Source: Thermodesulfobacteriaceae bacterium | GTDB lineage: Bacteria > Desulfobacterota > Thermodesulfobacteria > Thermodesulfobacteriales > Thermodesulfatatoraceae | Direction: 5' to 3' | NCBI GenBank assembly: GCA_015494065.1 | Contig: WGCA01000005.1 | Coordinates: forward strand, 1 to 34,486 | Length of the DNA stretch: 34,486 nt | Part shown: piece by piece, positions 32,048 to 34,486 of the stretch | Position numbering within the stretch: the stretch's first letter is position 1 | Layout: each line of letters opens with the position of its first letter | Made by a program: the position numbers and the translations under genes | Notes under the pieces: model-generated | Told to the model about the DNA's origin: nothing | Database searches by the model: none | The model's input: only the letters and a program-made list of their open reading frames with translations

Positions 32048-32173
32048 CCCCCTTTGTTATTGCTTGTTATTGCTAAGCAATTTTGTCACCCCCCTCCCAC
32101 GCATTTCAAGGCGAGGGGGGCCCTTGCGACGACTAACGAAAGATTCCGTATCGATTAAGCGCGTCGGCTAAAA

Positions 32174-32607
32174 AATGCTCCCGTTAATAGTCAGGCTGCA
32201 AATTTGTCCCGCAGGAGAAAGGAGAACTCGGCAAGCCCCAGTTTCCATTCCTTTTAGTTAGGCTGCAAACTCGAGAAAACGCATCTGGAGTTACCTCACT
32301 CAAGAAAGAGTTTCCATTCCTTTTAGTTAGGCTGCAAACTTTTGCTAGACGTTCTTTAAGAATCCTGCCGATATCCAGTTTCCATTCCTTTTAGTTAGGC
32401 TACAAACAGGAGAAAGTTAAAGAAGCCCCCGCTGCGCCGCATGAGTTTCCATTCCTTTTAGTTAGGCTGCAAACTCGTGATCCTGGGTAAGTGGCTCCTT
32501 TTCAGGTACAGTTTCCATTCCTTTTAGTTAGGCTGCAAACGGAGCTTTCTAAAACAGTCTGCAACCTGAAAATATTCGTTTCCATTCCTTTTAGTTAGGC
32601 TGCAAAC
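32174..32607 (-). CRISPR. CRISPR array 1: six full repeats plus a degenerate terminal repeat
   Basis: Six 30-base repeats begin at 32241, 32310, 32378, 32445, 32511 and 32578. On the plus strand they start GTTTCCATTCC and end GGCTGCAAAC. Spacers are 36-39 bases. All full repeats are identical except the third, which has CTACAAAC for CTGCAAAC. A degenerate copy at 32174-32203 keeps most of the last 16 bases and is followed by a normal 37-base spacer, so it marks the old, leader-distal end. The minus-strand repeat ends in ATGGAAAC, close to the ATTGAAAC handle of type I/III crRNAs, so transcription is probably leftward. No cas gene is in the window, so the subtype is unknown. Confidence 0.95.
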
Positions 32608-32634
32608 GCTACTTTCTCAAAGAGCGTTACATAT

Positions 32635-32663
32635 TGTGTAGCAAGGGATTGGGAGGGTGTCAA
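32635..32663 (-). promoter_or_regulatory. Candidate CRISPR leader promoter of array 1
   Basis: On the minus strand TTGACA (32658-32663) and TACACA (32635-32640) are 17 bases apart. The predicted start, near 32628, lies about 20 bases before the first transcribed repeat. Position and direction fit the leader inferred from the degenerate repeat at the other end. The -10 match is only moderate. Confidence 0.45.
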
Positions 32664-32685
32664 ATTCTTGGAAACGGGCGATTTT

Positions 32686-32731
32686 GCCGCTGGACCTCCA
32701 ATAATGCAAAAATTCCGGGGGGTCCAGCGGC
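32686..32731. repeat. 14-bp inverted repeat in the leader region of array 1
   Basis: GCCGCTGGACCTCC (32686-32699) pairs with GGGGGTCCAGCGGC (32718-32731) around an 18-base AT-rich loop. The outer 11 pairs are perfect, then one T-G wobble and two further pairs follow. There is no T-run, so it is not a classical terminator. It sits just upstream of the candidate leader promoter for leftward transcription. Role unknown: a protein-binding site, a cruciform or a remnant element are all possible. Confidence 0.7.
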
Positions 32732-32794
32732 TGTGAAATATTACACAAAAACATGGCTTGATTCGGCTCAGAATCAACAAGGAATCCCGGCACG

Positions 32795-32819
32795 AAAAAT
32801 GGGAACGGATCCCGTTTTT
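32795..32819. terminator. Terminator-like hairpin, copy A
   Basis: AAAAATGGGA (32795-32804) pairs with TCCCGTTTTT (32810-32819) around the loop ACGGA, with one wobble. The T-rich arms make it terminator-like on both strands. The 14-base core TGGGAACGGATCCC recurs in copy B 97 bases further on. On the minus strand it would stop transcripts from the nucleotidyltransferase gene before array 1. Confidence 0.55.
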
Positions 32820-32891
32820 TAACTCTACCGGTCTTCTCACTTGGTAAAAGGGGGAGGTTTGGGCCTTTTTATAACCCTGATGGGGACATCG

Positions 32892-32916
32892 AAAATTGGG
32901 AACGGATCCCATTTTT
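32892..32916. terminator. Terminator-like hairpin, copy B
   Basis: AAAATTGGGA (32892-32901) pairs with TCCCATTTTT (32907-32916) around the same ACGGA loop as copy A, with one mismatch. It lies 97 bases downstream of the nucleotidyltransferase stop on the minus strand. With copy A it forms a tandem pair of near-identical palindromes. Confidence 0.55.
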
Positions 32917-33012
32917 GGTGGCCGCAAATATTTTTAACTCACCATCTGGAGTGGGCGTGCTTCTGTGCGGGGAGCCTACAGGGCCAGTAAATCCCAACTT
33001 GTCGCAAGGTTT

Positions 33013-33660
33013 TCAGGCATTTTTACAAAAATTTTTTACGAGCTCTTGAAAAAACTTTTTGATTTCTTTCCACTTTTCTTCTTCAAGGGGTTCATTTTCT
33101 CTTAAAAATACGGTTTGGGCATCCGCGTCTTCAAAGTAAACCAAGCTCCGTAGAAAGAGGTTTTTCTGGTTAGAAGAGATACCGTATTTTTGTCGGCAGA
33201 GTTCAAGAAGAAAGGAAAGATCCCAGGCGTATTTTTGACACAGGAACCATAAGTCGAAAAAGTCCTTTTTCTCTCCTCTCTGCGCGATGGAGACTAGCTT
33301 TGAGGCTGCGATGTCTTCGTCAGATGCACATGGAAATTCACAGATTTTGAGAACCGGTTTTAAAAGGGGGTATGGATAAGAAAAGAAGGAGACCTTAATA
33401 CCTTTTATCCGTCCCCAGACAGTTCCCTTTTCAATCCCGCTGATTTCTCCGCTAACTTTTTGGAAAAGAGAAATGGTTTTTTCCAGGGGAAACCTCTTTT
33501 CCGCAAATTCCGGAAAGGAAAAAAAATCTAAATCCTCGGAGATACGGTGTTGGTAACGAAGGCTTAAGGCTGTGCCTCCGGTGAGGTAGAAAAATTCAGC
33601 GAGGCCAGATTTTGAGAGCTTCTCTAGGATTATTTTTTGTTGCTCGATTAAGCTTTTCAT
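33013..33660 (-). CDS. AbiEii/AbiGii-type nucleotidyltransferase (toxin-like)
   Basis: A 215-residue cytosolic protein of the AbiEii/DUF1814 nucleotidyltransferase family (PF08843). Near the N-terminus FYLTGGTALSL gives the GG-T motif, and HRISEDLDFF gives the two metal-binding aspartates in the S-x-D-x-D motif. Further on, DIAASKLVSIAQRGEKKDFFDLWFL matches the conserved lysine and K-D-F-x-D-L segment of the family. In AbiE systems this partner is a toxin that transfers nucleotides to tRNA or another target. I chose the ATG at 33660 because GAGG lies eight bases upstream; an in-frame TTG at 33672 is the alternative. It overlaps the small upstream gene by 65 bases. Its position between two CRISPR arrays suggests a defence or stabilising role. 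Confidence 0.82.
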   Translation of the reverse strand: MKSLIEQQKIILEKLSKSGLAEFFYLTGGTALSLRYQHRISEDLDFFSFPEFAEKRFPLEKTISLFQKVSGEISGIEKGTVWGRIKGIKVSFFSYPYPLLKPVLKICEFPCASDEDIAASKLVSIAQRGEKKDFFDLWFLCQKYAWDLSFLLELCRQKYGISSNQKNLFLRSLVYFEDADAQTVFLRENEPLEEEKWKEIKKFFQELVKNFCKNA

Positions 33661-33880
33661 CTTCAACCTCAAGCATAAGCTTCCAGAAAGCCCGGTTGGG
33701 CCCCCGAAAGAGGTGAATTTTTTTAAGAAAAATTTTTTCTAGATATTTTTTAGGAAACTTCTGGAGCAAAAAACAAGGATCGCCATAAAGCATGGCCCGA
33801 ACTAAGATGGTCATTTCATCTCCACAACGGTCCCAGTTAAACTGCTCGAGCTCAGGTGGAAGCGTTGGCCTTTTAGCCAT
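33596..33880 (-). CDS. Small partner protein of the nucleotidyltransferase (antitoxin candidate)
   Basis: A 94-residue protein encoded just upstream of, and overlapping, the nucleotidyltransferase gene. Its core, LPPELEQFNWDRCGDEMTILVRAMLYGDPCFLLQKFPKKYLEKIFLKK in outline, then FRGPNRAFWKLMLEVED, has the shape of the small helical proteins often paired with such enzymes in thermophiles: an initial FxWD, a YGD, and a late FW (compare DUF6922-like proteins). The family match is from memory and tentative. No SD precedes the ATG. The long overlap of 65 bases suggests coupled translation. If the pair is a toxin-antitoxin system, this would be the antitoxin, but AbiEi homology is not evident. Confidence 0.55.
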   Translation of the reverse strand: MAKRPTLPPELEQFNWDRCGDEMTILVRAMLYGDPCFLLQKFPKKYLEKIFLKKIHLFRGPNRAFWKLMLEVEDEKLNRATKNNPREALKIWPR

Positions 33881-34244
33881 ATTTAGTTAGACCGTGTTTT
33901 TGAGTGTAAATTACATTTACATTTTCGTTAAAGCTTAGAATTTTCCCTTCTGTTTTACACTTTGAACATAAGATATTAAGCAAATAAAACCCAAGTAAGA
34001 ATCTTTTGTCTTTTGTTTACCATAATTTGTAGGGGATATCACTATGTGGAATTGTAGAAAGATTTTTGGATTCGTTGGACAGTAAAAGTGTGGAAGATAA
34101 GAAATGTACAGGGAAGGTTTTAAAAGAGGTTACGGAAAGGGGCCCGCTGTCAGCTAAAATAACACCCATCCTGTCAAAACCATAGGCCCGAATCCTTAAC
34201 TTGAAGGCCAGCCTATGGAAAGTGCCTAGGTTTAGGTCAAAGCC
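33881..34244. other. AT-rich non-coding interval between the module and CRISPR array 2
   Basis: About 364 bases hold the module promoter and inverted repeat at 33903-33931. A 78-codon minus-strand frame starting inside the CRISPR repeat region shows no recognisable domain and is probably chance. No terminator was seen between array 2 and the module, and both read leftward, so array transcripts could enter the module. Confidence 0.5.
33903..33931 (-). promoter_or_regulatory. Promoter and possible operator of the nucleotidyltransferase module
   Basis: On the minus strand TTAACG (33926-33931) and TACACT (33903-33908) are 17 bases apart, each matching four of six consensus bases. The perfect inverted repeat TGTAAA-ttaca-TTTACA (33905-33921) overlaps the -10 element and spacer. 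A further TTTTACACT occurs at 33953-33961. This arrangement suits autorepression, which is common for toxin-antitoxin modules, but it is inferred. Confidence 0.4.
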
Positions 34245-34245
34245 C

Positions 34246-34420
34246 TTTTCCATTCCTTTTCCATTCCTTTTAGTTAGGCTGCAAACCTTCGGAATCGGTT
34301 ACCGGTACACCTATACCGGAACCGGTTTCCATTCCTTTTAGTTAGGCTGCAAACCGGGCTCAAGGAGGGGCGCTACCGCCGCCTCTGGAAGTTTCCATTC
34401 CTTTTAGTTAGGCTGCAAAC
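34246..34420 (-). CRISPR. CRISPR array 2: three repeats, same repeat as array 1, probably continuing rightward
   Basis: Repeats lie at 34257-34286, 34325-34354 and 34391-34420, with spacers of 38 and 36 bases. The repeat is that of array 1 and in the same direction. The first copy has T instead of G at its first base, and is preceded by a duplicated TTTTCCATTCC (34246-34256), which suggests the leader-distal end. The third repeat is followed by 66 bases to the window end, with no leader resembling that of array 1. The array therefore probably continues beyond the window, or is interrupted at 34460. Confidence 0.92.
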
Positions 34421-34486
34421 TGTTCGTGCTGGGTGTGCTGATTCTAGGAAGCAGTCCATGTTTCCACCGCCTGTCACCATTTCACC

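Follow-up and report, generated by a model that had tools for sequence, protein, structure and literature searches.

The window, by which we mean the whole stretch of DNA analysed here, is a complete contig (C5) of 34,486 bp with two CRISPR arrays near its right end. Both arrays are built from the same 30-nt repeat, GTTTCCATTCCTTTTAGTTAGGCTGCAAAC, and one of the six copies in the left array carries a single change. Repeat positions and open reading frames confirmed the original prediction that the two arrays enclose a two-gene operon on the minus strand (33013-33880). The features of the region are collected in Table 1.

Table 1. Features at the right end of the window
Feature	Position	Strand	Remarks
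Putative antitoxin: small helical protein, divergent relative of DUF6922	33596-33880	-	94 aa; profile comparison and conserved pairing
AbiEii/DUF1814-family nucleotidyltransferase, putative toxin	33013-33660	-	215 aa; start ATG 33660
Overlap of the two genes	33596-33660	-	65 nt, from the first ATG of the large gene to the end of the stop codon of the small gene
Perfect inverted repeat TGTAAAT-GTA-ATTTACA	33905-33921		Possible operator ahead of the small gene
Left CRISPR array	32190-32607	-	Six repeats (32241-32607) and a terminal half repeat (about 32190-32203)
Leader of the left array	32608-32820	-	82-83% identical to DNA next to the arrays on C27 (to 32820) and on C43 (to 32751)
Right CRISPR array	34257-34459	-	Three repeats (34257-34420); array cut by the contig end
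Insertion-sequence-end relic by the tRNA genes	32065-32092		Identical to C33:2304-2331; same place in G397
Another relic of that insertion-sequence end	34152-34223		84% identity to C33:2221-2294
Dispersed repeat	32124-32189		Adjoins the incomplete last repeat of the left array; further copies on C30, C42, C45, C56 and other contigs
Two REP-like palindromes, GGGAACGGATCCC	32793-32916		97 nt apart, between the AbiEii gene and the leader

The leader-like DNA on C43 adjoins an array beside cas2, and the C27 copy adjoins the array of that contig. Because the homologue of these leaders sits on the right side of the left array, this array is read leftward, as had been predicted; the right array would be read in the same direction, judging from the orientation of its repeats. 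Since the window is a complete contig, its end cuts the right array short before any leader is reached. The final 26 bases (34461-34486), which follow directly on a repeat broken off after seven bases, are identical to a stretch of contig C6 inside an EF-G-like gene, so the right end of C5 is probably chimeric.

The original prediction stated that no cas gene is present, which holds for the window but not for the genome. Contig C43 carries a partial cas3, cas4, cas1 and cas2 together with the leader and the same 30-nt repeat. Inserted among the genes of this cas operon (L029, 1-7246) are two AbrB/MazE-PIN (VapBC-like) pairs and two AAA_14/DUF4143 ATPases, giving the order cas3C, MazE-PIN, AAA, cas4, MazE-PIN, AAA, cas1, cas2, leader and array. 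The cas operons of the same genus lack these inserts, yet they keep remnants: in G180, a fragment of MazE follows cas3, and in G227, one of AAA precedes cas1. That PIN and AbrB/MazE genes are loosely associated with cas loci has been noted since 2006 (PMC1462988). On contig C31 (L031, 7613-7643), a lone CRISPR repeat, without an array, is accompanied by a REP-like palindrome and a short stretch resembling a leader.

To the left of the left array lies a conserved block with tRNA-Glu and tRNA-Lys at its end, beyond which relatives carry different DNA; beside the tRNA genes, the same-genus genome G397 shows 95% DNA identity. Relics of one insertion-sequence end lie on either side of the module, by these tRNA genes and again to the left of the right array, and the related stretch C33:2221-2294 adjoins a transposase-like ORF of 354 aa. 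The two REP-like palindromes are terminator-like on the minus strand. Mobile-element reworking is the simplest explanation of the neighbourhood. Across the genome, the dispersed repeat (~40-100 bp) occurs at more than 10 sites, for example L032 230-300 and C43:1460-1496, and it follows the C30 array. The palindrome GGGAACGGATCCC has ~14 genome copies, often in clusters with spacings of ~97-110 nt, and it accompanies three CRISPR leaders; besides the window, copies lie at C22:1640-1853, C54:63804-64383, C60:1798-1926, C27:481 and C31:22461. An ORF for a REP-type transposase, Y1-like by reading, is located at C33:68-709.

The product of the large gene matched Pfam PF08843 at 1.4e-22 and 81.2 bits, well above the curated cut-off of 22.5, and PADLOC gave the same assignment, bearing out the predicted AbiEii-family identity. 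The start distance is identical in every homologue among eight homologous pairs, which places the start at the ATG listed in Table 1 and not at the TTG at 33672. The AlphaFold2 model of this protein (pLDDT 95) found its nearest folds in the PDB in JHP933 from Helicobacter pylori, ANT(2'') and MenT1. In the alignment of AbiEii homologues, R39 and S41 are invariant and D43 and D45 near-invariant, together forming an R39-x-S41-x-D43-x-D45 site. Alignment and model agree with a nucleotidyltransferase fold, having the R-x-S/T-x-D-x-D site as well as the downstream K and D motifs; the catalytic site could be aligned with that of JHP933 in what is a weak alignment. In Thermosulfurimonas dismutans S95 (L081, 2204-2876), the AbiEii frame is intact, with SKNLAFF in place of SEDLDFF and the D-x-D lost. 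This natural loss of the metal-binding D-x-D implies that some copies cannot be active as enzymes.

The small gene was harder to place. Its 94-aa product had no direct match among the Pfam (DUF6922 included), NCBIfam and PADLOC models. All 15 distant partners tested matched DUF6922 (PF21956; best 2.6e-17), and hhalign of the close-clade profile against the profile of the DUF6922-matching partners gave 96.3% with an E-value of 1.8e-9 over 73 columns. On the basis of this profile alignment, we regard the 94-aa protein as a divergent relative of DUF6922. It had been described as an unknown protein overlapping the AbiEii gene; the overlap stands, and the assignment through profiles replaces the unknown. 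The predicted structure is all-helical (pLDDT 78), and a fold search with this model returned no solved relative. PDB sequence searches with the AbiEii alignment and with the small-protein alignment likewise returned nothing significant. Family-model searches found no match to AbiEi, the winged-helix regulator of AbiE, for the small partner.

The two genes are tied together by their overlap, which is exactly 65 nt in all eight close pairs (the window and seven related genomes). Between genomes, the third codon positions of the large frame show an identity of 0.556 within the overlap versus 0.369 just downstream, as would be expected if both frames are translated and under selection. Upstream of the small gene, the perfect inverted repeat might serve as an operator, but this is doubtful because the palindrome is not obvious upstream of homologous pairs. 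A scan for consensus promoters and terminators gave no excess over shuffled sequences.

Within the phylum, an AbiEii match was present in 82 of 395 genomes and a close relative of the small protein in 11. A search of GTDB genomes that used only the AbiEii alignment yielded 80 distant loci, and a small ORF matching the small-protein profile lay directly upstream of AbiEii in 51 of them at E<0.01 and in 69 at E<0.3. The DUF6922-AbiEii pair is scattered over many phyla, including candidate phyla and thermophiles. A conserved, overlapping two-gene operon with such a patchy spread is typical of toxin-antitoxin (TA) systems. We also considered a viral origin and rejected it, since no relative was confirmed in viral contigs and the phage matches amounted to two weak ones.

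Among known systems, AbiE (AbiEi-AbiEii), a type IV TA and abortive-infection system, shares with the window the AbiEii toxin family and the two-gene operon with the partner upstream. However, AbiEi is a larger transcriptional regulator with a winged helix, whereas the partner in the window is the small helical DUF6922-like protein with its 65-nt overlap. A further likeness is to MenAT1 of Mycobacterium tuberculosis, whose nucleotidyltransferase toxin MenT1 has an R-x-S/T-x-D-x-D site and is bound and silenced by the antitoxin MenA1. Like the putative antitoxin in the window, MenA1 is small (7.4 kDa) and has no winged helix (PMC11375011). The site in the window corresponds to R37-x-T39-x-D41-x-D43 of MenT1, in which T39 is the phosphorylated residue (PMC11375011). 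The fold match between MenT1 and the AbiEii protein is moderate (TM 0.45-0.52), and a kinship of MenA1 with DUF6922 was not among the results. MenT enzymes alter tRNA acceptor ends, and AbiEii proteins are suspected of doing likewise (PMC10435456, PMC7725324). The plasmid ece1 of Aquifex aeolicus carries the same two genes in the same order with the same overlap of exactly 65 nt, annotated as a hypothetical protein (AQ_RS08840) and an AbiEii/AbiGii toxin family protein (AQ_RS08835). None of the papers we searched treated neighbouring DUF6922 (PF21956) and AbiEii genes as a system, and DUF6922 was named nowhere in that literature.

We infer from these observations a coherent module of a nucleotidyltransferase toxin and a small antitoxin. 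The AbiEii/MenT-type enzyme would modify RNA, with the 3' ends of tRNA as the most likely target, and so arrest growth. Its DUF6922-like helical partner, whose gene comes first on the shared message, would bind and silence the toxin, possibly by promoting phosphorylation at S41, and the fixed overlap would couple the small gene to the toxin gene. The module would have come to lie between the arrays most likely through mobile-element traffic beside the tRNA genes. Our preferred reading, to which we assign a probability of roughly 0.75, is a self-contained and horizontally spread TA-like module whose array neighbourhood is a by-product of mobile elements rather than the sign of a CRISPR-specific job.

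The purpose of such a module could be phage defence, and a stand-alone, AbiE-like role is a tentative alternative. Infection would disturb the complex and the freed enzyme would halt translation, independently of CRISPR in a region rich in defence genes. AbiE family systems do give phage resistance (PMC7725324), the cas operon of the genome also holds TA-like pairs, and one copy of the pair lies on a plasmid. However, the defining AbiEi partner is absent, and plasmid maintenance or selfish persistence would fit the same facts. This alternative is compatible with a self-contained TA-like module and differs from it in the purpose claimed. We consider it unlikely that the nucleotidyltransferase instead serves in housekeeping or as a modifying enzyme, with the partner as its small subunit. 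The aminoglycoside-modifying ANT(2'') is among its nearest folds and the toxicity of the large protein is a prediction, but the patchy spread, the plasmid copy, the fixed two-gene overlap and the AbiEii family itself are all typical of TA systems.

The position of the pair between two same-repeat arrays could also mean that it guards them. Loss of an array segment would then remove the source of the antitoxin and leave toxin behind to stall the cell, or a crRNA-like RNA would repress the module in the manner of CreTA. CreTA comprises an RNA toxin that is repressed by Cascade through a degenerate repeat-spacer. CreTA and VapBC-type genes at CRISPR loci resemble the window in that TA genes stand beside CRISPR elements, but no degenerate repeat or spacer match was found in the module of the window. 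Neither the spacers nor the repeat matched the module (32608-34256) above shuffled controls, including the pairing of a spacer- or repeat-derived RNA with its promoter that had been proposed as a check.

The comparison with related genomes, also proposed at the outset, mostly revealed no array near the pair. In seven close relatives, the flanking DNA retrieved contained no array. Three same-genus genomes, G180, G227 and G345, contain the pair as well as arrays of this repeat, but at separate places, and in the closed genome among them the distance exceeds 0.7 Mb. In G397 and G400, both fragmented assemblies, arrays are present and the pair was not detected. With a detector that requires three exact 20-mers, an array was found within 10 kb in three of the 80 distant loci, at 187 bp (L178), 0.9 kb (L232) and 3.1 kb (L202). 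The resulting density of four arrays in 1.17 Mb around the distant pairs equals, at small counts on both sides, the two that this detector gave in 0.62 Mb of background stretches from 49 of these genomes, and we rejected an enrichment of CRISPR around the pair. A cas1 survey of 49 genomes found the gene in 28.

The exception is an Aminicenantes contig, JALVQI010000160 (G421:C160; L300 14905-19901; L178 8324-11924), in which a close-clade pair with a 50-nt overlap lies between cas2 and an array. AAA ATPases, cas3, cas4, cas1, cas2, the pair and the array all run in one direction; cas1-4 were identified by tblastn, and apparent type III genes by reading only. The order of pair, leader and array is common to this locus and the window, the pair in both being directly upstream of an array and running the same way, and a purely accidental reading must take the presence of the pair inside a CRISPR-cas locus as coincidence. 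Because two loci share this order, we leave a small residual probability on a functional link, although two cases make no rule. It is improbable, in our estimate, that CRISPR loci of some lineages recruited the DUF6922-AbiEii pair, which could stall cells when immunity fails or the locus is lost. With the pair scattered over distant genomes, its flanks usually free of arrays, and the arrays of the same genus far off or present where the pair is not, a guard of the arrays is very unlikely. Since relatives keep the pair and arrays apart, their neighbourhood in the window is probably accidental, and among the options raised by the original prediction, that of a chance neighbour stands, the homologues being scattered and largely free of any CRISPR association.

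Our comparison indicates that array adjacency should not be read as function without examining relatives. The value of the analysis lies in identifying the partner, not in a link to CRISPR: a DUF6922-like family is the habitual companion of AbiEii across phyla. The DUF6922-like proteins thus form a candidate antitoxin family, amenable to testing, for a toxin fold that ranks among the commonest, as part of a widespread and unstudied DUF6922-AbiEii module found here in a heat-loving bacterium of the Thermodesulfatator type.
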